Positions 1 to 46,460 of a stretch of DNA of 64,000 nt are shown here, in pieces. Source of the stretch: Capsulimonas corticalis (GTDB lineage Bacteria; Armatimonadota; Armatimonadia; Armatimonadales; Capsulimonadaceae). The stretch covers positions 6,510,001 through 6,574,000 of the forward strand of contig NZ_AP025739.1 in assembly GCF_003574315.2 (NCBI RefSeq), written 5' to 3'. The stretch's first letter is position 1, and every line of letters starts with the position of its first letter. A model generated the notes under the pieces. The model made no database searches. It saw nothing but the letters and a program-made list of their open reading frames with translations, and had not been told where the DNA came from. The position numbers were made by a program, and so were the translations under genes.

Positions 1-1985
1 CCGCCAGGATTATCCAGCGTCAGGCCGCTGTTCAGGTTATAGAACGTGTACGTCCCGTCGCTGTTGAGCGACGGAAGCCATTCGTCGTTCGTCCCGCCGC
101 CGGCCGGCCACTGCACCGTCTTCGCGCCGTTGGTAAACAAGCCCCCCGCCACATTCAGCGCCTGACCGCTGTTGACGTTGATGATCCGGTAGTAGCCCCG
201 GCTGGTCGGCGTGAACGTCCAGAGCTGGCTCGTCCCGCCGCCGTATGGCAATTGCACGATCGGCGCGGAGTTGGCGGTGGAGCTTCCCGACACGTCGAGC
301 ACCTGACTGCTCGACACGCTCTGGATCTCATATCGACCGGGGAAGCTGACCACTGACTGGAGCTTCCACAGTTGGTTGGCCGCGCCGGCGCCCCCGGATG
401 TCCACTGAATGATCTGGCCGCCATTGGCCGTGCTGCCGCCTGAGACATCGAGCACCAGTCCGCTGTTGACGTTCTTGATGTTGTACCAGCCACTGCCCAT
501 GGAGACCAGGTCGAACTGCTGACTGGCGTCGCCGGTCGAGTAGGGCCAGTCCACCAGCTGCGCCCCGTTGGTCTTGGACGCGGCCGAAATGGTGGCGGCC
601 ATGCCGGTGACCGACGAGATCAGCGCATAGTGACCGTTGGGGGTGGGAATGACCATCCAGTGCTGCGCGCCGTCCAGGTAATTGCTGACGGACCACTGGT
701 TGATCGGCGCGTTGTTGGCCGTGTTGCCGCTGATCAGGTCCATCGACAGGCTGCTGTTCTTATTGATGATTAGGGACTGCTGCGGAACGTCGAGCAGCTG
801 CCATATGCCCGCCCCGCTCGACATCTCCATGGCGTCGCTGGGAGGAGAGTTCGGGGTGGTGGGCGCCGTCCACTGGTTCCAGGTCACGTTTAGGCTGCAT
901 CGCTCCTGCCACGCCTGGTTGGCGTTCGCCAGCAGATAGGGATAGTAAGTGGCCCACAGGTGGTTGTCCGTGGCGAAGTCGCTCAGCCCCTTGACGAACA
1001 AGTACGCATACTGCGCGCCGCCGCTTTCGCTCCCGTCGCTCAGGATCGGCTCGACGCTCATTCGGTGACTGATGTCCAGGACCGCGTCGTTGTAGTACAT
1101 GGAGTTCCCGGTGATATGATAGAGAGCGTTCGCCGCGATTAGGAACGACCCGCTGTTGTACGCATGGTCGCCGTTTTCCAGCGAGCCGTCCGCGGTATGT
1201 TGCCCCTGGCTAAACGAGCCGGGAGCGCCCACGGCGTTGTTGGAGTTGGTCGGGTTGAAGAGATGGGTGCGCACCCAGGCATAGATGTTCTCGGCCTTCG
1301 TCAGATACGTGCTGTCGCCGGTGATCTCATAGAGCCAGACGCCTTCCCAGGCGATGTTATCGTTGCTCAGGCACTCTTTGTCGCCTTTCGTGTCCATGAG
1401 CTCGTAGATACCGCCCCCGAGCGCGTTGTCCCAGCCCCGGTTGTAGACGGTGTTCCAGTTTTGAATGGCGATGTTCAAATAGGTGGTGTTGCCGGTGATC
1501 TTGTATCCGCGCAGGTAGGCGTTGACCATCCAGCCCAGGTCGTCGTTCCAGCCGTCGCCGGACCAGTCCGTGCCGGAAGAGGTTTCAAAGGTGTTGAGCA
1601 GATTGCTGACCAGCGCCAGCGCGGCCGGCGTTCGGGTGACCTCATAGTTGTCCTCGGCGATGACGATGGTCAGGGCCTGGCCCCAGCCGCCGGTGTCGTC
1701 CGCGCCGATGCTGTTGAGCTCGCTGTTATAGAACGTGTTGCCGGTGGCCTGCCACAGGTAGTTCTGGTTGAAGGCGTTGTACGACGCCGCAGCCTCGTAG
1801 GGGGTGACGGACTGGTTCAGCTGCGCGTAAGCCGTCGATGGAGCAAACGCGGCGGCCGCGCCAAGGAGCGTGATTGATAGGCCAACCAGGGGTTTCGCGT
1901 GGGGCACCGTCGGGGCTGTATCGAATTTGGCGGGCTTCCTCAGACCGGCAAATTCGAGGATCTTGCTGAGCGTGTTCGTCGCCAT
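1..1985 (-). CDS. Secreted GH76 (alpha-1,6-mannanase-like) with ricin-type lectin domains, C-terminus outside window
   Basis: About 661 residues are visible; the gene runs off the left edge, so its stop is not seen. The N-terminus has a hydrophobic export segment (about residues 30-55) ending in an Ala-rich cleavage site. The catalytic (alpha/alpha)6-type region carries the GH76 Asp-Asp signature in WNDDLGWM, where the family places its catalytic pair. The C-terminal part contains at least two beta-trefoil lectin modules with repeated Q-L-W/Q-W signatures, for example VQLPYGGGTSQLW. GH76 enzymes cleave alpha-1,6-mannan outside the cell. The start is the ATG at 1985, with AGGAGAA about 8 nt upstream. 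It is transcribed divergently from the GH43 gene at 2361 and served by the promoter at 2094-2122. Substrate is inferred from family only. Confidence 0.88.
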   Translation of the reverse strand, partial: MATNTLSKILEFAGLRKPAKFDTAPTVPHAKPLVGLSITLLGAAAAFAPSTAYAQLNQSVTPYEAAASYNAFNQNYLWQATGNTFYNSELNSIGADDTGGWGQALTIVIAEDNYEVTRTPAALALVSNLLNTFETSSGTDWSGDGWNDDLGWMVNAYLRGYKITGNTTYLNIAIQNWNTVYNRGWDNALGGGIYELMDTKGDKECLSNDNIAWEGVWLYEITGDSTYLTKAENIYAWVRTHLFNPTNSNNAVGAPGSFSQGQHTADGSLENGDHAYNSGSFLIAANALYHITGNSMYYNDAVLDISHRMSVEPILSDGSESGGAQYAYLFVKGLSDFATDNHLWATYYPYLLANANQAWQERCSLNVTWNQWTAPTTPNSPPSDAMEMSSGAGIWQLLDVPQQSLIINKNSSLSMDLISGNTANNAPINQWSVSNYLDGAQHWMVIPTPNGHYALISSVTGMAATISAASKTNGAQLVDWPYSTGDASQQFDLVSMGSGWYNIKNVNSGLVLDVSGGSTANGGQIIQWTSGGAGAANQLWKLQSVVSFPGRYEIQSVSSSQVLDVSGSSTANSAPIVQLPYGGGTSQLWTFTPTSRGYYRIINVNSGQALNVAGGLFTNGAKTVQWPAGGGTNDEWLPSLNSDGTYTFYNLNSGLTLDNPG

Positions 1986-2093
1986 AACGACATTCTCCTT
2001 TTTGTATTGCAATGATTACTATTACCACTTATGATATGGCGCTCAATTGCGCCTTTCGTCCTCCTTTGCACTAATAATCTCAAAGGCACCATA

Positions 2094-2122
2094 ATTGTAT
2101 CACGGAATGGGTCCAGTGTCAA
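2094..2122 (-). promoter_or_regulatory. Sigma70-type promoter for the GH76 gene ending at 1985
   Basis: On the minus strand TTGACA (2117-2122) and TACAAT (2094-2099) are separated by exactly 17 nt. The spacer starts with CTGGACCCAT, a palindrome-like element also found in the promoters at 2208 and 8753. Confidence 0.8.
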
Positions 2123-2223
2123 TGTATTAATGGCTCCATTTCTCAACATTGTTATGCGATGGGACCAATATCTTGGTAACAGCTTTGATAGTATCAGCCT
2201 AAAATTATTGACTATGGTCCCAT
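2107..2223. promoter_or_regulatory. Cluster of four ATGGNNCCAT-type operators
   Basis: Four related 10-mers lie in the 375-nt region between divergent glycosidase genes: ATGGGTCCAG (2107-2116), ATGGCTCCAT (2130-2139), ATGGGACCAA (2159-2168) and ATGGTCCCAT (2214-2223). Two sit in promoter spacers next to the -35 box, which suits binding by a repressor or activator. The regulator is not encoded recognisably in this window. Confidence 0.65.
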
Positions 2224-2236
2224 TATATGTTAGAAT
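2208..2236 (+). promoter_or_regulatory. Sigma70-type promoter for the GH43 gene at 2361
   Basis: TTGACT (2208-2213) and TAGAAT (2231-2236) are 17 nt apart, with ATGGTCCCAT directly after the -35 box. The layout mirrors the two GH76 promoters. The leader to the start codon is about 120 nt. Confidence 0.75.
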
Positions 2237-2360
2237 TAGCTTACCTCAGAGAGCAAAGCCGCCAGAAGTCATCGGAGCAGCAGAGCGTCTGCATCCCCCG
2301 CGAAGAACGCCGTCAGGTCAAGCAAATGCCGCCCGGCGTTCAGGAAAGTGAGCGACCTAT

Positions 2361-3899
2361 TTGAACGATGTGAAATTATCGCGCCGCGCGCTGCTGCAAT
2401 TGGCGGCGGGAGCGTCAACGACGATGCTGGCGAGCCGTTTGCCTGCGGCATGGGGACGCGCCCCGCGTGAGCGGAAAGCCGCTCAATTTCAGAACCCGCT
2501 GTTCGCCGGCGACTACGCGGACCCCACGATCCTGCGCGTCGGCGAGGATTTCTATTTTACCAATACGTGCTATCGCTATGCGCCGGGCTTGGTGGTCTGG
2601 CGCTCGCGCGATCTGGTGAACTGGACCCCGATTTCTAAAGTGCTTAATCACTCCTACGAAAGGGCGGAGGTGTGGGCGCCGGATCTTGTCGAACACAAGG
2701 GACACTACTATATCTATTTCCCAATGGGGGGCATTTTTGTCGTCCATGCGGAGCATCCGAGCGGACCGTGGAGCGAGCCGATCGAACTGAAGGTCGACGA
2801 CATCGATCCGGGCCACGTTGTCGGGCCGGACGGGACGCGCTACCTGTACACGGCCGGCGGCCACATGGTTGAGCTGAGCGCCGACGGCCTGTCTGCGGTC
2901 GGGGAAAAAAAGCAGGTTTATCAAGGCTGGCAGTTCCCGGCGGACTGGAAGACCGAAGGCTTCTGGCTGGAGAGCCCCAAGCTGACCCGGCGCGGCGACT
3001 TCTACTACCTGATTTGCGCCGAGGGCGGCACCAGCGGACCGCCCACTAGCCACATGTCCGTCGTGGCCCGCTCCCGCTCGCCGCTGGGCCCATGGGAGAA
3101 CTCGCCCCACAATCCGCTCATCCACACGTACAGCGAGGATGAGACCTGGTGGTCGGTCGGACACGGAACGCTCGTCGACACGCCCGACGGCCGCTGGTAC
3201 TTCGTTTACCACGGCTACCGCAACGGCTTTAAGTCGCTGGGCCGTCATACATTGCTGGAGCCGATCGAATGGACCGACGACGGCTGGCCGCGGGCGCCGC
3301 TGGGCGCGCGGCGCGACCAGCCAATGCCCGCGCCGATGGGCGTCGCCCAGAAACCGATGATCCCGCTGTCCGACGATTTCCGCGCGCCGACGCTCCAGCC
3401 GACCTGGGGAGCCTGGAGCGAAGCCGACATGAGCCGTTTCCAAACGGGCCATGGCGCGCTCACGGTGCGGGCCAAGGGAGACACGCCCGGCCACAGTTCT
3501 CCGCTCGCCGTGATGGCGCGCGACGTCAGTTACGAAGTGCAAGTCGTGGCGTCGCCGAAGGGCGGCTGCGGCGCGGCGCTGGGGCTGTTTTACAACCCCG
3601 ACCACTGGCTGTTCGCCGAACTGGGCAGCGGTCGTCTGCGCGCTTACGGCCCCAAGGAAACACTGGCGGATCGCGATTGGACAGCGCGCGCGGCGCACCT
3701 GAAGATCGTGAACAGTCGCAACCGCGTCGAGATCTTGGCCAGCGGCGACGGGCGTCAATGGCAAAGTCTGGTCAAGGATTTCGACGCAAGTGGCTTCAAC
3801 ACCAATACGCTGGGGGGATTTCAGGCGCTGCGCATCGCGCTTGCCGCGAGCGCTACGGATGAAGCGCGTTTCACCGATTTCCGTTACCGCGCTTTGTAA
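2361..3899 (+). CDS. Tat-exported GH43-family glycosidase
   Basis: 512 residues. The N-terminus has a twin-arginine motif (LSRRALLQL) followed by a hydrophobic stretch and AWG, so export by Tat is likely. The five-bladed propeller begins near residue 45 with AGDYADPTI (Asp base), followed by a DIDPGHVVGPDG segment (the second, pKa-tuning Asp) and ESPKL (Glu acid), the expected GH43 triad. After about residue 335 a C-terminal beta-sandwich of the kind seen in xylosidase/arabinofuranosidase GH43 members follows. Start options are TTG at 2361 or GTG at 2370, downstream of AGGAAAG. It shares the divergent operator region with the GH76 gene, so both likely respond to the same glycan. GH43 specificity (xylan, arabinan or galactan) cannot be assigned from this reading. 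Confidence 0.88.
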   Translation: MNDVKLSRRALLQLAAGASTTMLASRLPAAWGRAPRERKAAQFQNPLFAGDYADPTILRVGEDFYFTNTCYRYAPGLVVWRSRDLVNWTPISKVLNHSYERAEVWAPDLVEHKGHYYIYFPMGGIFVVHAEHPSGPWSEPIELKVDDIDPGHVVGPDGTRYLYTAGGHMVELSADGLSAVGEKKQVYQGWQFPADWKTEGFWLESPKLTRRGDFYYLICAEGGTSGPPTSHMSVVARSRSPLGPWENSPHNPLIHTYSEDETWWSVGHGTLVDTPDGRWYFVYHGYRNGFKSLGRHTLLEPIEWTDDGWPRAPLGARRDQPMPAPMGVAQKPMIPLSDDFRAPTLQPTWGAWSEADMSRFQTGHGALTVRAKGDTPGHSSPLAVMARDVSYEVQVVASPKGGCGAALGLFYNPDHWLFAELGSGRLRAYGPKETLADRDWTARAAHLKIVNSRNRVEILASGDGRQWQSLVKDFDASGFNTNTLGGFQALRIALAASATDEARFTDFRYRAL

Positions 3900-3937
3900 A
3901 TTCCGGCAATGCAGCTCGGCGCGCGGCGTCTTCCACT

Positions 3938-3997
3938 TTCAGGCACAAATCAGCCCCGCAAGCGAGTACTCGCTTGCGGGGCTGATTTGTGCCTGAA
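3938..3997. terminator. Long bidirectional terminator between convergent genes
   Basis: A 60-nt perfect palindrome: 30 bases (3938-3967) are followed directly by their reverse complement (3968-3997), centred on GAGTACTC. It lies between the stops of the GH43 gene and the convergent lectin-esterase gene. Confidence 0.85.
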
Positions 3998-4002
3998 GGC
4001 TG

Positions 4003-5145
4003 TTATCTTCCGATCACATTGAAGCGTTGGTTGGACTGACCGCCGTTCCATCCCCATTGGTCGAACTGCCCGGCCTGGGTCGTTCCGCTGGGATTGTCTA
4101 GAACGGAGCCGCTGTTGCGGTTGTAGAAGATATAGGAGCCGTCGCTCTGACGCACCGGCTGCCACTGGTCGTTCCCCTGGTTGCCGAACTGCCACTGCAC
4201 GATCTTCGCTCCGTTCGCCGTCGAAGCGCCGGCCACGTTCAGATCGAGAGCGCTTCCGGCGTTCTTGATCTGGTAGTAGCCATTGCTCGTCGGAATGAAG
4301 TTCCACAACTGATTCGAAGTGCCCTGGTAAGGCCACTGGACGATGGGCGCGTTGTTAGACGTGGAGCCGCCGGAAACGTCCACCACCTGGCCGCTGTATT
4401 GGTTTTGAATCTCAAAAACGCCGGCGAAGTCGATGTGCGAGACCCAGCCATTGGCGATGACTTGCCGGATACCGGCGTCCCAATTGTCGGCCATCTTCTG
4501 ATAACCGCCGTCATTGGGATGCAGGCCGTCGTTCAGGTCACCCAGGTTGAGCGAGCTCATGCTGACCGTGTAGACATGCTTGCCCGCATTCACGCGCGCC
4601 TGCACGATGCCGGGGATCTGGCTGTTGAAGTTGTTAATGTCGGTTTGGACCCAGCCAGTCGAATTACAGATCAGCTGCGCGACCAGAATGGTGACGCCAG
4701 GGTCGGCGGCGAGGATCTGATCGATCAGCGAAGCCAATCGGTTCGGAGCGGTGGAGACCTGGTAGTTTTGGCCCAGGTCGTTGGTGCCGATGTGCAGCAA
4801 TACAACATTCGGCTGGTAAAGAGCCAGTTCCCCGTTGATCAAGCCGGCGATCTGATCGATCCGATCGCCAAAGTACCCTTCGTTATCGGGATCGAACATC
4901 ACGCCGCTGCGCTGCGAACCCACGAAGTCCAGCGCGTCGCCCTGATTGATCAGCTCGGTCCACAATGGTCCGCGATAACCATTGCCGGTGGAGCTTCGGT
5001 AGCCGGCGGTGATTGAGTCTCCGACCGCCATCAATCGTAAACCGGCGCTCTGCGCGTGCGCCGTGGTCCCAGCCGCCATGAGCAGGGAGCCCGCGAGCGC
5101 CGCGACGGCGGAAGCGGCAATCGTTTTTCGTTTGGTGAAATGCAT
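4003..5145 (-). CDS. Secreted SGNH/GDSL hydrolase with ricin-type lectin domain
   Basis: 380 residues from the ATG at 5145, which has GAGGAGA 8 nt upstream; an in-frame ATG 18 nt earlier (5163) has a poorer context. A Sec signal peptide ends near AHA (about residue 32). The hydrolase part shows all SGNH blocks: GDSITAGY (nucleophile Ser), GTNDLGQ (Asn) and DGLHPNDGGY (Asp/His). From about residue 235 a beta-trefoil lectin follows with repeated Q-W motifs such as IVQWPYQGTSNQLW. It is probably a carbohydrate esterase (acetyl-xylan or related) tethered to polysaccharide by the lectin. It lies 61 nt after the GH76 gene at 5207-6748 and is likely its operon partner. Confidence 0.87.
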   Translation of the reverse strand: MHFTKRKTIAASAVAALAGSLLMAAGTTAHAQSAGLRLMAVGDSITAGYRSSTGNGYRGPLWTELINQGDALDFVGSQRSGVMFDPDNEGYFGDRIDQIAGLINGELALYQPNVVLLHIGTNDLGQNYQVSTAPNRLASLIDQILAADPGVTILVAQLICNSTGWVQTDINNFNSQIPGIVQARVNAGKHVYTVSMSSLNLGDLNDGLHPNDGGYQKMADNWDAGIRQVIANGWVSHIDFAGVFEIQNQYSGQVVDVSGGSTSNNAPIVQWPYQGTSNQLWNFIPTSNGYYQIKNAGSALDLNVAGASTANGAKIVQWQFGNQGNDQWQPVRQSDGSYIFYNRNSGSVLDNPSGTTQAGQFDQWGWNGGQSNQRFNVIGR

Positions 5146-5206
5146 GTTCGTCTCCTCATTCAAAGAGGCCGCCTCCGTCGTCGGGTGGCGGCCTCATATC
5201 ATCGTC

Positions 5207-6748
5207 CTATTGTAGTTTCCATCGCTGCTGAGGCTGGCCGCTCCAGCCCCATCCAATCAGCGCCTGCCCATTCGTCGTGGTGCTGGAGCTGTCCAGCGCC
5301 AAACTGCTCGCCTGGTTCCAGATCTTGTAAGTGCCGTCCGACTGCACGTCCACCCACCATCGCTGGTTGCTGTCGCGGCTCTGCGTCCACTGGATCATCT
5401 TCGTGCCGTTCGTGGTATTGCCGCCGGGATCGTCCAGGCCGAGCCAGCTAGACTGGCTGACGATGTTCCACGAAGTGTCCGCGTTCTGCGTGAAGTTCCA
5501 GATCTGGGTTTGACCGTAATTGAGGCCCCAGAGACCGACGACACTGTTAGTGGCGGTGAGGCCGAGACTGTCGATCGCCATGTTGTTCAAACCAACGATC
5601 GTGTGCCGGCCCCAAATGTTATTCGGCTGCGTGACGGGAGTGTATTGCAGCCACGCCGCCGCGTCGCAGAATCGATTGGTAATGATCGAATTGTCGTTGG
5701 GCGTCTGCGTCGTGAAGTCGCTCCAGCAGATGTTGTAGTCCGTGCGGCGATGGCTCATCGCCGCGTTGGCGTTAGCCTGCGCCCAGCTCAGATACGTACC
5801 CCACATGCGGTTATCACGGCAAAAGTGACCCAGACCGCGAGCGTACTCGTCCGACCAGGTATTGGTGCCGCCGCCGGTCATCACGCCGCCGTTGTACCAG
5901 GTGCTGCCCTTAACATAATCGAGCGCAAGTTTCGCGTCGTTGTAGTATTGGACGTTTCCCGTAATCTGGTAGAGGTAGTTGGCGTAGTCCGCGAACGTCC
6001 CCTGGTTATAGACATTCCGGCCGGTATTGACATTGCCGCTGCGGTCGACGCCGTTGTAAACCTGCCCATTGCTGGTGTTGAAAAGGTGACTGCGCACCCA
6101 CGCGTAAATCTGTGTGGCCCGGTCCAGATACCATTGATCGTGGTTGCCCATGTAGATCAGACAGGCCGCCTTGCCGATGCTGTCATTGGAGAGCGCTTCC
6201 TTGTCGATCGTCTGCCCCGCCGGAGTCATGTTGGGCTGCTGCTCCCAGATGCCGCCGCCGTTGTACTGCGTATCCCAGCCGCGCGACCAGACCATATCGA
6301 CGCAAGCGGTGCGCGCCTGAAGAAGCAGGTTGGAGTCGCCGGTGATTAGATAGCCACGGGCCAGCATGGTTCCAATCCAGCCCTCATCGTCGTTGTAACC
6401 ATCCCAGGTGTATCCCGGCGGGAACTTCTGCAGGAAGGTGGTGCAAAGCGCTTCGACCAAAGCCTTATGCGCGCTGCTGCCGGTGCGCTCATAAGCGTCC
6501 TCGGCCACCATGATATCGATCGCTCCGGTCCAGCCGCCGTCAAAAGTGTTGCCGTTGATCGATGTCTTGTAATAGTTTCCATTCACCAAAAAAGCGTTAT
6601 TGAAGCCGTTGAACATCGTATCGGCGTCGCCCGAACCGATGGCCGACGCCTGCTGCGGCAGGGCGCAGCAGGCGCCGACGAGCAAAGCGACCAGACCAGT
6701 CTGGACCGCGATGCCTTTGAGCGAGAACTTGAGTTTGTTTTGGAACAT
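5207..6748 (-). CDS. Secreted GH76 with C-terminal ricin-type lectin (copy 1)
   Basis: 513 residues, with a signal peptide ending around ASA (residue 35). The GH76 core holds the Asp-Asp signature in WDGYNDDEGWIG and the aromatic-rich repeats of the (alpha/alpha)6 barrel (SRGWDTQYNGGGIWEQ). The last ~130 residues are a lectin trefoil (LDDPGGNTTNGTKMIQW and WGWSGQPQQRW). AGGAGA lies about 6 nt before the ATG at 6748. It is a near twin of the gene at 6841-8382; 194 bp in the lectin-linker region are identical in both. It sits second in a three-gene transcript (GH76, GH76, SGNH) with spacings of 92 and 61 nt. Predicted to hydrolyse alpha-1,6-mannan outside the cell. Confidence 0.9.
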   Translation of the reverse strand: MFQNKLKFSLKGIAVQTGLVALLVGACCALPQQASAIGSGDADTMFNGFNNAFLVNGNYYKTSINGNTFDGGWTGAIDIMVAEDAYERTGSSAHKALVEALCTTFLQKFPPGYTWDGYNDDEGWIGTMLARGYLITGDSNLLLQARTACVDMVWSRGWDTQYNGGGIWEQQPNMTPAGQTIDKEALSNDSIGKAACLIYMGNHDQWYLDRATQIYAWVRSHLFNTSNGQVYNGVDRSGNVNTGRNVYNQGTFADYANYLYQITGNVQYYNDAKLALDYVKGSTWYNGGVMTGGGTNTWSDEYARGLGHFCRDNRMWGTYLSWAQANANAAMSHRRTDYNICWSDFTTQTPNDNSIITNRFCDAAAWLQYTPVTQPNNIWGRHTIVGLNNMAIDSLGLTATNSVVGLWGLNYGQTQIWNFTQNADTSWNIVSQSSWLGLDDPGGNTTNGTKMIQWTQSRDSNQRWWVDVQSDGTYKIWNQASSLALDSSSTTTNGQALIGWGWSGQPQQRWKLQ

Positions 6749-6840
6749 TTCAATCTCCTGTGAACGAAATCAGGACGCTTGAGAACGCCCTGGGAAAAGG
6801 CCGCCTCCCTGGGCGGAAGACGGCCGTGTTGGAAATGACG

Positions 6841-8382
6841 CTATTGAAGCTTCCATCGCTGCTGGGGTGCGCCGCTCCAGCCCCAGCCAATCAGCGACGC
6901 TCCATTCGTCGTGGTGCTGGAGCTGTCCAGCGCCAAACTGCTCTGCTGATTCCAGATCTTGTAAGAACCGTCCGACTGAACATCCACCCACCATCGCTGG
7001 TTGCTGTCGCGGCTCTGCGTCCACTGGATCATCTTCGTGCCGTTCGTGGTATTGCCGCCGGGATCGTCCAGGCCGAGCCAGCTAGACTGGCTGACGATGT
7101 TCCACGAAGTGTCCGCGTTCTGCGTGAAGTTCCAGATCTGGGTTTGACCGTAATTGAGGCCCCAGAGACCGACGACGCTGTTGGTGGCGGTGAGGCCGAG
7201 ACTGTCGATCGCCATGTTGTTCAAACCAATTATCGTGTGCCGGCCCCAGATGTTATTCGGCTGTGTGGCGGGGGTGTACTGCATCCACGCCGCGGCGTCG
7301 TCAAACCGATTCGTGTTGATCGAGTTGTCGTTAGGCGTCTGCTGGGTGAAGTTGCTCCAGCAGATGTTGTAGTCGGTGCGGCGGTGGCTCATAATGGCGT
7401 TCGCGTTGAGCACCATCCAGCTATAATATGTGCCCCACATGCGGTTGTCACGGCAGAAGTGACCCAGACCGCGAGCATACTCGTCCGACCAGGTGTTGGT
7501 GCCGCCGCCGGTGATGACGCCGCCGTTATACATGTTGTTCTTGACGTAATCGAGCGCCAGCTTGGCGTCGTTGTAGTATTGGACGTTTCCGGTGATCTGG
7601 TAGAGATAATTGGCGTAATCGGCGAACGTCCCCTGGTTATACGCCGTCGCATCGGCAGTGCTTGTATCGACATTGCCGCTGCGGTCGATCCACGAATACA
7701 CCTGCCCGCTGCTCGTGTTGAAGAGGTTGCTGCGCACCCACGCATAAATCTGTGTGGCGCGGTCCAGATACCATTGATCGTGGTTGCCCATGTAGATCAG
7801 GCAGGCCGTTTTGCCCAAGCTGTCGTTGGACAGCGGGGTTTTATTGATCGCTTGGCCCGCCGGGGTCATATTGGGCTGCTGTTCCCAGATTCCGCCGCCG
7901 TTGTACTGAGTGTCCCAGCCGCGAGACCACGCCATATCGAAACAGGACGTTCGAGCCTGGGAAAGAAGGTTGGCGTCGCCGGTGATCAGGTAACCGCGCG
8001 CCAGCATTGCGCCGATCCATCCAATGTCGTCGTTATAGCCATCCCAGGTGTATCCCGGCGGGAATTTCTGTAGGAAGGTGGTGCAGAGGGTCTCGACGAG
8101 CGCTTTGTGCGCGCTGCTGCCGGTGCGCTCGTAGGCGTCCTCGGCCACCATAATGTCCAGGGCTCCGGTCCAACCGCCGTCAAAAGTGCTGCCGTTGATT
8201 GATGTCTTGTAATAGTTGCCGTTCACCAAAAAGGCGCTGTTGAAGCCATTGAACACCGTGTCGGCGTCGCCCGATCCAATTGCCGACGCCTGCGGCGTCG
8301 CGCCGCAGCCCAGCCCGACAAGCAATGCCAGCAGTCCGGCCTGGGCAGTCGCTCTCGTCATTGAGAGCTTGATTTTCTTCAT
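6841..8382 (-). CDS. Secreted GH76 with C-terminal ricin-type lectin (copy 2)
   Basis: 513 residues from the ATG at 8382, chosen over an upstream in-frame ATG at 8475 because GGAGAT precedes it at good spacing and the signal peptide then starts correctly (MKKIKLSMTRA, cleavage near ASA). The GH76 signature is WDGYNDDIGWIG. The lectin trefoil is at about residues 390-513. It is paralogous over its full length to 5207-6748. Differences concentrate in the N-terminal signal, a Ser/Thr insert (DTSTADAT) and scattered synonymous sites, while one lectin-side tract is identical. It is the first gene of the transcript starting from the promoter at 8753-8781. Confidence 0.9.
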   Translation of the reverse strand: MKKIKLSMTRATAQAGLLALLVGLGCGATPQASAIGSGDADTVFNGFNSAFLVNGNYYKTSINGSTFDGGWTGALDIMVAEDAYERTGSSAHKALVETLCTTFLQKFPPGYTWDGYNDDIGWIGAMLARGYLITGDANLLSQARTSCFDMAWSRGWDTQYNGGGIWEQQPNMTPAGQAINKTPLSNDSLGKTACLIYMGNHDQWYLDRATQIYAWVRSNLFNTSSGQVYSWIDRSGNVDTSTADATAYNQGTFADYANYLYQITGNVQYYNDAKLALDYVKNNMYNGGVITGGGTNTWSDEYARGLGHFCRDNRMWGTYYSWMVLNANAIMSHRRTDYNICWSNFTQQTPNDNSINTNRFDDAAAWMQYTPATQPNNIWGRHTIIGLNNMAIDSLGLTATNSVVGLWGLNYGQTQIWNFTQNADTSWNIVSQSSWLGLDDPGGNTTNGTKMIQWTQSRDSNQRWWVDVQSDGSYKIWNQQSSLALDSSSTTTNGASLIGWGWSGAPQQRWKLQ

Positions 8383-8940
8383 CGTCGTTATCTCCTCGAG
8401 TACTATCTTCGCGGCTCCAAGCAGATCGCTTGTACTGTATGTCGTCATACGGTAAGCCATGGATCTGTATTGCAATTACTGCAATTAAAATATTAACATC
8501 AGCCGAAATCTTAGCGGCGCGGTGAACATCCTTTCCTGCTTGATCTTACATCCACTGAATTGCAATTCTATCTATTAAACTATCTGTAACGCGGCAAACG
8601 CTGATCCGGAGTTCCTGCAATCGTTACAAATCGCATATTTGCAAAGAACGGGCGGACAAAATAGCCATCCCTGGAAGTTCCTTCGCGGTCGAGCGCATTG
8701 CCGCAAAACATCAGCCGAGAGATCGTCACTCAATGATTGCGAATGCACCATAAGTGTATCACAGAATGGATCCATTGTCAACAAGAAAATCAAATACAAT
8801 CCATGATGGTACCAATCAAAGACAAGATGGATCCTTTCACTCACGAAATCGCTAATTTTACATCTCAAATTGGATATGTTCGGCGAGAAGAAAAGAGGTT
8901 CGTCGTCTGGCGCCACAAACACAGAGAATGGCGCCATTGC
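8383..8940. promoter_or_regulatory. AT-rich regulatory region upstream of the GH76-GH76-SGNH operon
   Basis: 558 nt without a convincing gene. It contains the minus-strand promoter at 8753-8781 and three ATGGNNCCAT-like sites (8766-8775, 8806-8815, 8827-8836). The leader from promoter to start codon is about 360 nt, long enough for further control. I see no other structure I can name. Confidence 0.6.
8753..8781 (-). promoter_or_regulatory. Sigma70-type promoter for the GH76 operon, with operator in spacer
   Basis: On the minus strand TTGACA (8776-8781) and TACACT (8753-8758) are separated by 17 nt. The spacer begins with the perfect palindrome ATGGATCCAT (8766-8775). The downstream half (GTGATACAcTTATGGTGC) is nearly the same as at 2089-2107, showing that the two promoters are homologous. 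Confidence 0.8.
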
Positions 8941-31354: not shown

Positions 31355-31867
31355 ATGTCTGAGCCGTTTTTATCAGAGATACGCGTCTTCTCCTTCAACT
31401 TTCCGCCCAATGGCTGGGCGTTCTGCAATGGAGCGATCGTGCAGGTCCAGCAGAATCCGCTCCTTTATCAGCTGATCGGCAATACCTACGGGGGGACCGC
31501 CCCAAATTCGTTCGCGCTTCCAAATCTGAGCGGAAGCACGCCGATTCATATGGGTGGCGACTACGCTCTGGGCGCGGCCGGCGGCAAACCGGACAACCTG
31601 CTGACCGTGAACACAATGCCCCAGCACACGCACACGCTGCTCGCGTCGAAGGCTGCGGCGACTTCGGGATCGCCGGCCGGCGCGGGTCTTGCGGCGCCGA
31701 TCGCGCAAGTCGGGCCGGTCTACACGCCGAACACGGACTTCTCGGCGAAGATGGCGCCTGGGGCGATCGCAAACGCCGGCAGCGGCGGCGCGCACAACAA
31801 TATGCAGCCTTACCTGGCGCTGAACTTCTGCATCGCCCTGCAAGGCGTCTATCCTAACCCCAGCTGA
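31355..31867 (+). CDS. Tail-collar/microcystin-dependent-type protein, type A, cassette 1
   Basis: 170 residues, ATG at 31355 behind GGAGG. The collar domain is at residues ~6-60: EIRVFSFNFPPNGWAFCNGA, then LIGNTYGGTAPNSFALPNL and an HMGG turn. The centre is variable and Ala/Ser/Pro-rich, with an HTHTLLAS strand. The end NNMQPYLALNFCIALQGVYP is family-typical. These proteins resemble the short tail-fibre collar of phages and the MdpB-type proteins of bacteria, for which I know no settled function. Type A is marked by EPFLSEIR, as in 33600-34112. No signal peptide. Confidence 0.88.
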   Translation: MSEPFLSEIRVFSFNFPPNGWAFCNGAIVQVQQNPLLYQLIGNTYGGTAPNSFALPNLSGSTPIHMGGDYALGAAGGKPDNLLTVNTMPQHTHTLLASKAAATSGSPAGAGLAAPIAQVGPVYTPNTDFSAKMAPGAIANAGSGGAHNNMQPYLALNFCIALQGVYPNPS

Positions 31868-31887
31868 GGATCGGAGGAGATCACATT

Positions 31888-32409
31888 ATGCCAGAGCCTT
31901 ATGTCGGCGAAATTCGCCTGGTCGGCTTCAACTACGCCCCCTCCGGATGGGCGATTTGCGATGGCGCATCGCTCCCGATCTCGCAGTACGACACTCTCTA
32001 CGCCTTGATCGGAACAAGATACGGCGGCGACGGAGAGGAGAACTTCAATATCCCGAACCTTCTGGGCAGGCTGCCGATCCATATGTCGGCGGATTATCCC
32101 ATCGCAAGCTCCGGAGGATCCGAGACAGTCTCACTGACGGCCACGGAAGTCCCGGCGCACGGACACGCCCTCGCGGCGTCCAGCGCGACCGCCAGCGCCT
32201 CATCGCCGGAAAATGCGCTCCTGGCGGTCCCGGCCGTCGATATTTACACGCCGATTCCGGCCCCGCCCACGCCGCCGCCGGCGCTCGTTTCCATGACCAC
32301 GCAAACCGACGCCGGCCCGTGCGCGGGGGCGCCCCATGTCAATCTGATGCCGTCGCTTTGCATCAATTACGTGATCGCCCTCTACGGAATTTTTCCGACA
32401 CAGAATTGA
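31888..32409 (+). CDS. Tail-collar/microcystin-dependent-type protein, type B, cassette 1
   Basis: 173 residues, ATG at 31888 behind GGAGGAG, 20 nt after type A. Collar domain: EPYVGEIRLVGFNYAPSGWA, then ICDGASLPIS and YGGDGEENFNIPNL. The middle has VPAHGHALAASSA and a Pro-rich stretch. The end VNLMPSLCINYVIALYGIFP differs from types A and C by CINY instead of LNF, as in the second cassette's type B. Probably forms oligomers with the neighbouring types, but that is inference. Confidence 0.88.
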   Translation: MPEPYVGEIRLVGFNYAPSGWAICDGASLPISQYDTLYALIGTRYGGDGEENFNIPNLLGRLPIHMSADYPIASSGGSETVSLTATEVPAHGHALAASSATASASSPENALLAVPAVDIYTPIPAPPTPPPALVSMTTQTDAGPCAGAPHVNLMPSLCINYVIALYGIFPTQN

Positions 32410-32426
32410 CGAGAGGAGTCAAAGAT

Positions 32427-32960
32427 ATGTCCGACCAATACATCGGCGAAATTCGGATTGTGCCGTTCGGCTACGCCCCCTACGGGTGGGCGATGTGCAA
32501 CGGCCAGATCCTGCCGATCAATACCAACTCGGCGCTGTTCTCGCTGCTCGGAACGTACTACGGCGGCGATGGGATCTCGACATTCGGGCTGCCCAATTTG
32601 ATCGGGCGCGCGGCGATGGCGTACGGCAATGGAAATAACCTGACGCCGCGCGCCATCGGCGAGATCGACGGAAGCCCCGCCGTCGAGCTGACTCCCGATC
32701 AGCTTGGCGCGCATACGCATGTCATGAATGGCAATAACGCCACCGCCTCGTCGTCATCCCCCGACGGCGCCGTTGTCGCCATTCCCGCGACAGGTCCCCG
32801 CGAGCCCAACGCGCTCTATAATCCCGCTCCCGCCGATACCGGCATAGCGGCCGCCTCGCTTTCCCTGGCGGGAAGCAGCCAGGCGCACGACAACATGCAG
32901 CCCTATCTGACGCTAAACTTCATCATCGCTCTGAACGGAGCTTTTCCGCCAAGATCATAA
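32427..32960 (+). CDS. Tail-collar/microcystin-dependent-type protein, type C, cassette 1
   Basis: 177 residues, ATG at 32427 behind GAGAGGAG, 17 nt after type B. Collar domain: SDQYIGEIRIVPFGYAPYGW, then CNGQILPINTNSALFSLLGT and YYGGDGISTFGLPNL. The middle has LGAHTHVMNGN and GPREPNALYNP, the latter matching the type C protein at 34692. The end is NMQPYLTLNFIIALNGAFPP. A terminator follows 2 nt after the stop. Confidence 0.88.
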   Translation: MSDQYIGEIRIVPFGYAPYGWAMCNGQILPINTNSALFSLLGTYYGGDGISTFGLPNLIGRAAMAYGNGNNLTPRAIGEIDGSPAVELTPDQLGAHTHVMNGNNATASSSSPDGAVVAIPATGPREPNALYNPAPADTGIAAASLSLAGSSQAHDNMQPYLTLNFIIALNGAFPPRS

Positions 32961-32962
32961 CA

Positions 32963-33009
32963 CATTCTCCCTGTCAAAATCCCATCCCGCAATATTGACA
33001 GGGAGAATG
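32963..33009. terminator. Terminator of cassette 1, sharing sequence with the next promoter
   Basis: A 15-bp perfect stem: CATTCTCCCTGTCAA (32963-32977) pairs with TTGACAGGGAGAATG (32995-33009) around a 17-nt loop. The right arm contains the -35 box of the second cassette's promoter. Confidence 0.65.
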
Positions 33010-33023
33010 AATTGTGATAAAGT
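32995..33023 (+). promoter_or_regulatory. Promoter of tail-collar cassette 2
   Basis: TTGACA (32995-33000) and TAAAGT (33018-33023) with a 17-nt spacer; homologous to the promoter at 31085-31113. Confidence 0.65.
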
Positions 33024-33161
33024 AGACAGACATTGTTTTCAAAGTATGCATGAAGCATGGGCCCTTTCAAATGTGAGGATCCATCGCGATGTTTGTGTAC
33101 GCTGTTCCGATAGCCATGCGCCGCCACAACGTTCTCCGTGGCGGCCGCGCGACGGAATGAA

Positions 33162-33221
33162 GGCGGACATGTCCGCCTCGGGCAGCCATGCTTGTATCTG
33201 GTGACTGCGTTTTACCGGGCG
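33162..33221 (+). ncRNA. Structured leader motif, copy 2
   Basis: CGCC-U-CGG (33174-33181) pairs with CCG-GGCG (33215-33221). GCAG (33182-33185) pairs with CTGC (33205-33208). The outer stem differs in sequence from copy 1 but keeps pairing. A strong hairpin GGCGGACATGTCCGCC (33162-33177) uses the same CGCC, so again two folds compete. It lies 51 nt before the DUF6916 gene. Confidence 0.5.
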
Positions 33222-33271
33222 ATCCATTTTCCTAATGCTCGCTGTACGATGTACGCGCTGGAGCCTACACT

Positions 33272-33580
33272 ATGTCTGTCACAATTTTGCTTAGCCACGC
33301 CACGGCTGAAGACTTCTCCCCCCTGCTGAACACCGAATTTTCCATCGCGACGGACGACGGCGGATCCGCCCAGGTCACTTTATCGGACGTCAAGTCCGTC
33401 GGAGTCGCCATGGCGAACGCACGCCAGCCATTTGTTCTGACGTTCACGGGAACGCCCGGCCTCGTGCTGCCCCAACGTATCTACCGGATTTCTCATCCGG
33501 GTGTCAACGACATCGAAATCTTCATCGTCCCCATCGCCGCGACGGCGCAGGCGACGACATATGAAGCGATTTTTTCCTAA
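33272..33580 (+). CDS. DUF6916-family protein
   Basis: 102 residues. The pattern matches DUF6916 as I know it: an opening ATAEDFSPLLNTEFSI, then VTLSDVKSVG, FVLTFTGTPGLVLPQRIYRI, SHPGVNDIEIFIVPI and YEAIF at the end. It is all beta and has no signal peptide. DUF6916 proteins are commonly met beside tail-collar genes and no function is established. Here the gene opens the second cassette, directly after the leader motif and 19 nt before the type A gene. Cassette 1 has no copy. Confidence 0.8.
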   Translation: MSVTILLSHATAEDFSPLLNTEFSIATDDGGSAQVTLSDVKSVGVAMANARQPFVLTFTGTPGLVLPQRIYRISHPGVNDIEIFIVPIAATAQATTYEAIFS

Positions 33581-33599
33581 TCCACAATCGAGGTGAACC

Positions 33600-34112
33600 A
33601 TGGCGGAGCCATTTCTATCGGAGATTCGCATCTTTTCTTTCAACTATCCCCCCAAGGGATGGGCGTTTTGCAACGGACAGTTGCTTTCCATCGCGCAGAA
33701 CACCGCGCTCTTTTCGCTGATCGGCACATACTATGGCGGCAACGGTCAAACGACATTCCAGCTTCCGAACCTCCAGGGCCGAGCGCCTCTTCACTCCGGC
33801 CCAATCAATTCCGCTGTGGGGACCCAAGGCGGAGAGGCCGCTCATACACTGACACTGGGTGAGATCCCAACGCACTTCCATACTCTGCAAGGGCAAAACG
33901 TGACCGCCACCACGGGTTCGCCAAGCAGCGCAAACCTCGCACAGCCAGTCTCGAATGTCGGCGCGGTATACGCCACGACTGCGGGAGACACGACCATGGC
34001 GCCGCAGGCGATCGCGAACGCGGGCAACAGTCAGCCACACAATAATATGCAGCCGTACCTCACATTGAACTTCTGTATCGCACTGGTTGGCATATTCCCA
34101 AGCCGCAACTGA
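33600..34112 (+). CDS. Tail-collar/microcystin-dependent-type protein, type A, cassette 2
   Basis: 170 residues, ATG at 33600 behind GAGGTGA. Collar domain: AEPFLSEIRIFSFNYPPKGW, then CNGQLLSIAQNTALFSLIGT and YYGGNGQTTFQLPNL. The middle has HFHTLQGQNVTATT, and the end is NNMQPYLTLNFCIALVGIFP. It has the same length as the type A protein of cassette 1 and shares AIANAG before the C-terminal block. Confidence 0.9.
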   Translation: MAEPFLSEIRIFSFNYPPKGWAFCNGQLLSIAQNTALFSLIGTYYGGNGQTTFQLPNLQGRAPLHSGPINSAVGTQGGEAAHTLTLGEIPTHFHTLQGQNVTATTGSPSSANLAQPVSNVGAVYATTAGDTTMAPQAIANAGNSQPHNNMQPYLTLNFCIALVGIFPSRN

Positions 34113-34149
34113 TGCGCCAGCGCCGTTTGTTATTAGGAGAAACCTCATT

Positions 34150-34647
34150 ATGTCAGAGCCATATATCGGCGAAATCCGCCTGGTCGGCTTCAGCTTCGCA
34201 CCTGTAGGGTGGGCGTTTTGTGATGGGTCGCTGCAATCCATCGCGGAAAACACCACCCTTTTCCAGATCATCGGAACAACGTACGGGGGCGACGGGCAAA
34301 ACACGTTTGCGCTGCCCAACCTTCAAGGGCGCGTCCCTATTCATCAGGGCAATGGCTTCGTCATCGGCCAGATTGCCGGCTCGGAAACCGTAACGCTGAC
34401 TTCTCAGCAGCTGCCTTCGCATAAGCACGCGTTAGCCGCGTCGACTGGGGCGGCGACAAGCACGAGTCCGGCGAACGCCAATCTCGCCGCCTCCGGCATT
34501 GACGTCTATATTTCGCCCACGTCACCCGTCTCGACCACGACGAGTTCGACGGCGGCGGGAGGCGGGCAGCCTCACGAAAACATGATGCCGTTCACGTGCA
34601 TTAACTATATCATTGCTCTGTTCGGGGTTTTCCCTTCGCAGAATTAA
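34150..34647 (+). CDS. Tail-collar/microcystin-dependent-type protein, type B, cassette 2
   Basis: 165 residues from the ATG at 34150, behind TTAGGAGA; an upstream in-frame start would overlap the type A gene. Collar domain: EPYIGEIRLVGFSFAPVGWA, then FCDGSLQSIAENTTLFQIIG and YGGDGQNTFALPNL. The middle has LPSHKHALAAS, and the end ENMMPFTCINYIIALFGVFP carries the type B CINY signature. Counterpart of 31888-32409. Confidence 0.9.
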   Translation: MSEPYIGEIRLVGFSFAPVGWAFCDGSLQSIAENTTLFQIIGTTYGGDGQNTFALPNLQGRVPIHQGNGFVIGQIAGSETVTLTSQQLPSHKHALAASTGAATSTSPANANLAASGIDVYISPTSPVSTTTSSTAAGGGQPHENMMPFTCINYIIALFGVFPSQN

Positions 34648-34691
34648 TATCGGAAGCGCCGGATCATCACCGGCCGCCGGAGACTACCATT

Positions 34692-35225
34692 ATGTCGGAT
34701 CAATTTCTCGGAGAGATCAGAATCGTTCCCTTTAACTTTCCGCCGCATGGGTGGGCGTTCTGCAACGGACAAATTCTCCCCATCTCGCAGAATACCGCGC
34801 TCTTCTCGCTGCTCGGTACTTTTTATGGCGGCAATGGAACGAGTAACTTCGCGCTGCCCAACCTTCAGGATTCCGTGGCGATAAGCCAGGGGCAGGGATC
34901 CGGCCTGACGCCGCGTATCCTCGGCGAAACCGGCGGCTCGGCGTCCGTAACGCTCCTCTCCACGGAGATGGCGCCGCATGTCCACGGTCTTGTCGCCGAC
35001 TCCAGTATTGCGAGCAGCGTTAGCCCGGCGGGAAACCTTGCGGCCGTTCCCGCCGCCGGCCCTCGGCGCCCAAACCAGATGTACGCCACCGGCGCCGCGA
35101 CAACCGCCATGCAGCAGAACGGATTGCTGGCGGCGGGCAGCGGGCTGCCGCACAATAACCAGCAGCCTTACCTGACGCTGAATTTCGTCATCTCGATGGT
35201 GGGAATCTTTCCGCCGCGCGGATAG
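34692..35225 (+). CDS. Tail-collar/microcystin-dependent-type protein, type C, cassette 2
   Basis: 177 residues, identical in length to its cassette 1 counterpart (32427-32960). Collar domain: SDQFLGEIRIVPFNFPPHGW, CNGQILPISQNTALFSLLGT and YGGNGTSNFALPNL. The middle has MAPHVHGLVADSS and GPRRPNQMYAT, and the end is NQQPYLTLNFVISMVGIFPP. It is followed after 28 nt by the Tat-exported gene, probably on the same transcript. Confidence 0.9.
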   Translation: MSDQFLGEIRIVPFNFPPHGWAFCNGQILPISQNTALFSLLGTFYGGNGTSNFALPNLQDSVAISQGQGSGLTPRILGETGGSASVTLLSTEMAPHVHGLVADSSIASSVSPAGNLAAVPAAGPRRPNQMYATGAATTAMQQNGLLAAGSGLPHNNQQPYLTLNFVISMVGIFPPRG

Positions 35226-46094: not shown

Positions 46095-46460
46095 ATGCAA
46101 AACTCAGCACAAAAAACGCCTCGAATGTCAAAAGGCTGGCGCGCCATCACTGTCAACGATCAGAAGTATTTATGGATCGCAAGGCTTATGGACCCATGGA
46201 TCTTTTGCCCGCACCCTTACGCTCCGACGGAGCGCACAGGCGACGTGCTGATCCGGATTCCAGACAACGCCAGCCAGACATTGACGATCAAGGTTGATGA
46301 CGAGATTCTCCAAACGCCAGAGCACAATGGATCCGTTACGCCGAGAATGATACGCCGTTTTATCCTTGGCGCCCTCGCACGCGGCTGGGACCCAATGCAG
46401 AGCAGCGAGGCAATCGATCTGCAAGAAACAAAAATACTTCTCAAAAGGACAGATGACTAG
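46095..46460 (+). CDS. Hypothetical protein
   Basis: 121 residues from the ATG at 46095, behind AAGAGAGA. Beta-rich start (KGWRAITVNDQKYLWIAR, GDVLIRIPDNASQTLTIKVD), then a helical end (SVTPRMIRRFILGALARGWD). The KGWR-x-I-x-V and VTP...GW blocks look like a family of small proteins scattered in environmental bacteria, but I know no function. It lies alone between the lectin gene and a broken gene. Confidence 0.6.
   Translation: MQNSAQKTPRMSKGWRAITVNDQKYLWIARLMDPWIFCPHPYAPTERTGDVLIRIPDNASQTLTIKVDDEILQTPEHNGSVTPRMIRRFILGALARGWDPMQSSEAIDLQETKILLKRTDD

Follow-up and report, generated by a model that had tools for sequence, protein, structure and literature searches.

A GG-nn-CC operator in glycan-gene promoters of Capsulimonas corticalis, probably bound by a clade of AraR-like regulators

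Introduction

Operators placed between the -35 and -10 boxes, such as the tet and engineered lac operators, occupy the classical position for steric blocking of RNA polymerase. To our knowledge, few regulators of Armatimonadota have been studied. Operators of the GntR family are normally palindromic with a GT...AC core (NyGTNxACNy), and those of the FadR subfamily with a two-nucleotide centre read TKGT-nn-ACMA (PMC4494728). AraR of Bacillus subtilis is a repressor with the operator consensus ATTTGTACGTACAAAT (PMC4218819). The recognition-helix residue R41 makes contact with an operator G, and both R41 and R45 may be positioned by E30; changing T6 to G together with E30A has been proposed to let R41/R45 contact GG (PMC4218819).

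In this study, we analysed a window of 64 kb, bases 6510001-6574000 of the 7.65 Mb single-contig genome of Capsulimonas corticalis, in which the original prediction had seen one palindrome shared by three promoters of glycan genes. The regulators that we propose to read this palindrome resemble AraR in joining a GntR winged helix to a LacI/GalR-type sensor. They would also resemble AraR in governing polysaccharide-degrading enzymes (putative here), with several palindromic operators per promoter. Unlike AraR, which occurs once per genome, they form a set of eleven paralogues with an extra Arg after R41. The operator differs as well: ATTTGTACGTACAAAT has a GT...AC core, whereas the site described here is 10-12 bp long, has a GG-nn-CC core that does not match the GntR consensus, and usually lies in the -35/-10 spacer. 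Its half-sites are spaced as in the FadR form TKGT-nn-ACMA, and the second core base is the main difference between that form and WTGG-nn-CCAW; however, in FadR-type regulators the sensor is all-helical and binds carboxylic acids, whereas the one found here is LacI-type. The tet and engineered lac spacer operators involve unrelated DNA-binding proteins and operator sequences. AraR-type repressors are already known, but the GG-nn-CC operator seems to be new, as does its sharing, and a literature search of open-licence papers returned no relevant report of TGGNNCCA-type operators.

Results

Genes of the window

Gene calls were made with a simple codon-usage script. The genes at the start of the window are the following (window coordinates):
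1..1985, minus strand: GH76 gene with ricin-B repeats, running past the window edge and leading a unit (sequence reading)
2361..3899, plus strand: GH43 glycosidase gene, start codon approximate (Pfam Glyco_hydro_43, E 1e-83)
4003..5163, minus strand: GDSL/SGNH esterase gene with a ricin-B domain (Pfam)
5207..6748, minus strand: GH76 gene with a ricin-B domain (Pfam)
6841..8475, minus strand: GH76 gene with a ricin-B domain, start codon approximate (Pfam)

The labels GH43, GH76, GH76 and SGNH given by the original prediction hold in Pfam, with ricin-B domains in addition. The GH76 domain match of the first gene lies at genome positions 6510888-6511568, and the unit that it leads goes on with GH76, GH92 and GH76 genes in the adjoining locus L064 (Pfam). 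Taken together, the window start and L064 hold several GH76 genes, one GH92, GH43 and two GDSL esterases (Pfam), and form an alpha-mannan-type cluster. The GH76 genes at 5207-6748 and 6841-8475 are duplicated in tandem, with 94% identity over the 300 bp at their 3' ends.

Two other features of the window were noted. A perfect 30-bp inverted repeat with no loop (3938-3997) lies between the convergent GH43 and SGNH genes and is terminator-like. Farther on (31355-35225), six tandem genes encode similar proteins of 165-177 aa that begin MSEP(F/Y)..EIR(V/I/L)..F.(F/Y).P.GWA.CNG. They recall phage tail-collar proteins.

Promoters and sites of the window

The promoters and sites are (window coordinates):
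2094..2122, minus strand: GH76-unit promoter, TTGACA-CTGGACCCATTCCGTGA-TACAAT, extended -10 TGATACAAT (sequence and exact composite-motif match)
2107..2116: operator ATGGGTCCAG (minus strand: CTGGACCCAT) in the spacer of the 2094 promoter
2083..2092: degenerate operator AAGGCACCAT (one mismatch), directly 3' of the -10 box and near +1 of the 2094 promoter
2130..2139: operator ATGGCTCCAT, 23 bp from the spacer site of the 2094 promoter (exact match)
2159..2168: operator ATGGGACCAA in the divergent intergenic region, perfect TGGnnCCA core, different outer bases
2208..2236, plus strand: GH43 promoter, TTGACT-ATGGTCCCATTATATGT-TAGAAT, extended -10 TGTTAGAAT (sequence and exact composite-motif match)
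2214..2223: operator ATGGTCCCAT in the spacer of the GH43 promoter (exact match)
8753..8781, minus strand: promoter of the GH76-GH76-SGNH unit, TTGACA-ATGGATCCATTCTGTGA-TACACT, extended -10 TGATACACT (sequence and exact composite-motif match)
8766..8775: operator ATGGATCCAT in the spacer of the 8753 promoter (exact match)
8806..8815: operator ATGGTACCAA, 5' of the 8753 promoter, perfect TGGnnCCA core, different outer bases
8827..8836: weak operator-like site ATGGATCCTT, one arm damaged

The sequence bears out the three predicted promoters: each has a 17-nt spacer, and the 10-mer [A/C]TGGnnCCAT begins at spacer base 1, right after the -35 box. All three -10 boxes are extended (TGnTAnAnT), a feature absent from the original prediction. 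The four extra copies that it had listed are uneven: 2130 is perfect, the cores of 2159 and 8806 are intact but bordered by different outer bases, and one arm of 8827 is damaged. Some other promoters of the group carry a site at the place equivalent to 2083..2092.

Allowing one mismatch, the bare 10-mer occurs 37 times over the 64 kb against 24.5 expected, a count reached in 1 of 100 shuffles; this is too weak alone, because coding DNA dilutes the signal. The significance of the window sites comes from their position and not from the bare count. Four TGGnnCCA cores fall within 332 bp (2029-2360) and four within 480 bp (8461-8940), where about 0.08 would be expected in each, and none of 5,000 dinucleotide shuffles came as high. 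No promoter of this class was seen near a further site at 46188, which was therefore left unassigned.

These data bear on the reading that the repeats are chance occurrences, or descend by duplication from a single promoter or mobile element. In its favour, some 45 bp are common to the two minus promoters of the window, and two of the GH76 genes are tandem duplicates. However, the plus promoter and the promoters in L061, L062 and L064 are otherwise dissimilar and share the operator position, the core is kept while centres and flanks differ, and the shuffles never came as high. We regard this reading as very improbable.

Distribution of the site in the genome

Genome-wide counts were obtained by pattern searches, with the reversed motif as control. 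With at most one mismatch, TTGACnnTGGnnCCAT matched 44 times in the whole genome, against 6 for the control. Two of its six exact matches (L001 and L002) lack a -10 box and look like coding DNA. The composite promoter motif TTGACnnTGGnnCCAnnnnnTGnTAnAnT matched 7 times exactly and, with at most two mismatches, 23 times against 0 for the control. We dropped the two-mismatch matches L068, L070, L071, L072 and 3820585 (in L066), which have no core palindrome; the one-mismatch matches 3813185 and 6639578 are doubtful, having no perfect core palindrome. The convincing composite matches are (genome coordinates):
6512094: before GH76
6512208: before GH43
6518753: before GH76-GH76-SGNH
6502735: before an SGNH and ricin-B gene pair
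1063714, 1065224, 2787728 and 3040634: before DUF1559 genes
3040432: before a GH2 enzyme gene
5389077: before a PQQ-domain gene, itself just 3' of an AraR-like regulator gene

Hence, the site is enriched in promoters throughout the genome, as expected of a true operator. The group extends beyond the carbohydrate genes on which the original prediction had focused: the same promoter also stands before several DUF1559 pseudopilin-type genes. A fourth promoter with a spacer site lies 9 kb outside the window, within its alpha-mannan-type cluster. Paired sites (ATGGnnCCA...TGGnnCCA) numbered 29 against 9 in the control, and 10 against 1 in a second Capsulimonas genome (G002, 69% complete), in counts where palindromic pairs may score on both strands. 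The paired-site search adds, among others, a unit with a GalA-type beta-galactosidase and GH92 (L222).

The genome holds at least 152 DUF1559 (SBP_bac_10) pseudopilin-type genes (for example L061:7853-8668 and L166:10063-10917), many of which adjoin LacI or AraR-like regulator genes and glycosidase genes. We rejected DUF1559 genes as the common feature of the site loci, because DUF1559 loci are not enriched in general.

A look-alike had to be set apart. The sequence TATAATGGTCCCAT has six copies (genome 1762889, 3156687, 4191091, 4228324, 4287454 and 5339348), occurs in several genera (including L246, L248 and L250), and lies, in the copies read, about 60 bp 5' of an IS3-type transposase gene. 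This sequence, a promoter-like element end, mimics the operator. Such copies are what a mobile-element origin of the repeats would predict. A genome-wide class with the operator overlapping the -10 box (TANAATGGnnCCAW) was mostly rejected, the TATAATGGTCCCAT copies with a readable neighbour adjoining an IS3-type transposase; those left after excluding TATAATGGTCCCAT include L222, L230, L069 and L229.

Position of the site relative to the promoter

The palindrome has the consensus AWTGGnnCCAWT; across 81 collected sites, A is favoured before the core and T after it (AATGGnnCCATT). Measured from the start of TTGAC to TGG, offsets fall into three clusters separated by about two helical turns: 11 sites in the spacer at 6-8, eight of these at 7; 10 upstream at -14 to -17; and 5 around -10/+1 at 27-29. 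One array precedes a sialate-O-acetylesterase-type gene (L164 9718-9785), with four operator cores in 68 bp (spacings 17, 24 and 17), four different centres and a TATAAT-like box between cores.

The ten sites just 5' of the -35 box could be taken as the working sites of an activator, at about -14 to -17 relative to TTGAC. Yet the best-conserved position is the spacer of promoters with good -35 and extended -10 boxes, which favours blocking, and AraR is a repressor (PMC4218819). Activation thus seems quite unlikely.

A clade of AraR-like regulators associated with the site

Several loci with motif matches hold AraR-like regulators (GntR HTH plus Peripla_BP_3). To avoid circularity, regulators were then picked by homology alone, independently of the motif. 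Of the 48 GntR-type HTH matches in the genome, 11 constitute an AraR-like clade marked by (H/D/Q)R(R/K/Q)xxR in the recognition helix and by a CR(P/A) motif after it. In a maximum-likelihood tree, all 24 clade rows, drawn from several genomes, fall on a single 100/100 branch; an upstream site is present in 12 of these 24 rows and in 1 of 30 outside the clade. In C. corticalis, 6 of the 11 clade members have a core site at most 300 bp upstream, against 1 of 30 other regulators (Fisher p 6e-4), and the remaining 5 have none within that distance. Candidate regulators with the site in their own upstream regions, which the original prediction had suggested looking for, are thus present.

Of the 64 palindromes with this layout, WTGGnnCCAW ranks first in enrichment in the intergenic DNA lying up to 3 kb from the 11 clade genes, with 17 occurrences against 0.6 expected from base composition only; near the clade members of G002 it again ranks first (5 against 0.38). 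Comparison loci were GntR, LacI and DUF1559 only, with 0 sites against 1.38 expected near other GntR genes, 2 against 0.5 near LacI genes and 0 against 0.7 near DUF1559 genes. The AraR-type operator ATTTGTACGTACAAAT is not the one enriched near the clade. Enrichment near regulators chosen by homology also contradicts an origin of the repeats by chance or duplication.

Clade members have an N-terminal GntR-type winged HTH (Pfam GntR above cut-off) and a C-terminal LacI/GalR-type sensor (Peripla_BP_3, E 1e-29 to 1e-32). Against the DNA-binding domain of AraR (4egy) the HTH gives E 0.0066, less good than against other GntR structures, and the sensor matches that of AraR (3tb6) at E 5e-12, with CcpA and other LacI-family sensors scoring higher. 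Since the architecture is that of AraR but the operator is different, we call the clade AraR-like and do not regard its members as AraR orthologues. The Glu and two Arg residues matching AraR E30, R41 and R45 are invariant in the clade, and mostly an extra Arg follows R41. We propose that the helix with the added Arg may fit the GG-nn-CC core. The original prediction had not recognised the site as that of a common family; the likely binder does belong to one (GntR, AraR-like), and the site itself departs from the GT...AC core of that family.

Genes adjoining clade regulators include GH31, GH2, GH76 and esterase genes, which would point to a variety of glycans as signals, and the clade genes at 1741908 and 2390723 lie near other GH76 genes. 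No clade gene was found within 1 Mb of the window; hence, the regulator of the window would be one or more of the 11 candidates, acting in trans.

The same distance would fit a different single regulator, LacI-type or a global catabolite regulator, that co-controls the glycan genes and the AraR-like regulator genes. Some sites do lie beside LacI genes (for example at 2974312, where a LacI gene and a large gene flank the site), in line with the slight excess at LacI loci. However, the excess is 28-fold near the clade and 13-fold in the second species, the site is absent near other GntR genes, and in the Chthonomonadaceae it still lies directly 5' of a clade gene. Judging from the GntR, LacI and DUF1559 loci compared, control by such a regulator is unlikely.

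Conservation in relatives

The nearest relative found was Capsulimonas sp. RYN_270 (phylum Armatimonadota). The GH92-unit promoter (L222/L230) keeps TTGGCGCCAAAATGCTTGACAGG and TATAATGGnnCCATTG in both Capsulimonas species, although the aligned region is 57% identical. Other orthologous pairs (L061/L153, L062/L161, L065/L228 and L069/L229) have sites in both species, with more turnover. Such conservation in orthologous promoters also speaks against chance or duplication as the source of the repeats.

When one clade member was compared with 291 genomes of the phylum, 7 of them gave strong matches (E 1e-65 or better). The Chthonomonadaceae homologues are about 46-49% identical, with ATGGTACCAA or ATGGCACCAA directly 5' of the regulator's likely ATG and ATGGTACCAA again 5' of the DUF1559 gene after the regulator. 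More distant members (G024, L322 and L323) have one-mismatch sites at best. The sites, their positions, their recurrence and their clade-specific association can be read directly in two Capsulimonas species and in the Chthonomonadaceae.

A side observation concerns the Chthonomonadaceae start codons (L188 1454-1463, L189 1454-1463), where the operator runs almost up to the likely start codon of the regulator, at the place expected for a ribosome-binding site. This suggests a leaderless transcript or one with a very short leader.

Discussion

Judging from sequence, the site is probably the operator of a clade of AraR-like repressors that controls the glycan cluster and is released by a sugar. 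The same operator stands in several promoters and upstream of candidate regulator genes, as in a repressor regulon. We infer direct binding, repression rather than activation, cooperativity, a sugar signal and the candidates for the acting paralogue. An AraR-like dimer would occupy the promoter spacer with its GntR winged helix-turn-helix on the DNA; as it would cover the stretch that RNA polymerase needs between -35 and -10, initiation would be blocked, and the spacer position of the site points to such steric repression. Extra dimers about two helical turns upstream and, in some promoters, around -10/+1 may bind cooperatively and tighten the block. A polysaccharide breakdown product would then bind the LacI/GalR-type sensor and release the repressor, turning on glycosidases and, at several loci, also genes of the DUF1559 pseudopilin type. 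For the window, the predicted target is the alpha-mannan-type cluster (GH76, GH92, GH43 and esterases), controlled in trans by at least one of the 11 paralogues.

The original prediction had assigned the three window promoters to one regulator. The shared operator does group them, but the assignment to one regulator is not supported as it stands: 11 paralogues appear to share the site. Each promoter might instead obey its own paralogue through the nn centre, the flanks or the array spacing, with one paralogue dedicated to the window cluster. This is a finer version of the preferred explanation, so that the probabilities of the two overlap, and it may well hold, although we lean slightly against it. 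The clade genes near GH76 genes, at 1741908 and 2390723, are candidates for such a role, and arrays do vary in spacing and centre bases. However, centres vary widely even inside single arrays, as in L164, so no private code is visible, and there is no perfect core site at the GH76 genes beside 2390723.

We tentatively consider a broader scenario: a lineage-specific expansion of AraR-type repressors within Armatimonadota, in which about a dozen glycan sensors would read one GG-nn-CC spacer operator, with a specificity shift from the added recognition-helix Arg. If so, promoters would integrate many sugar signals through a single type of site.

Altogether, our results provide a testable operator, a regulator family and a target list for polysaccharide use in Armatimonadota, and name candidate regulators for an alpha-mannan-type degradation cluster. 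They also offer a clean case for GntR specificity, in which a conserved extra Arg accompanies a GG instead of a GT operator core. A subset of DUF1559 pseudopilin-type genes gains a regulatory link to glycan use. Finally, the paralogue set raises the question of whether a dozen sensors on one DNA site give separate responses or cross-talk.
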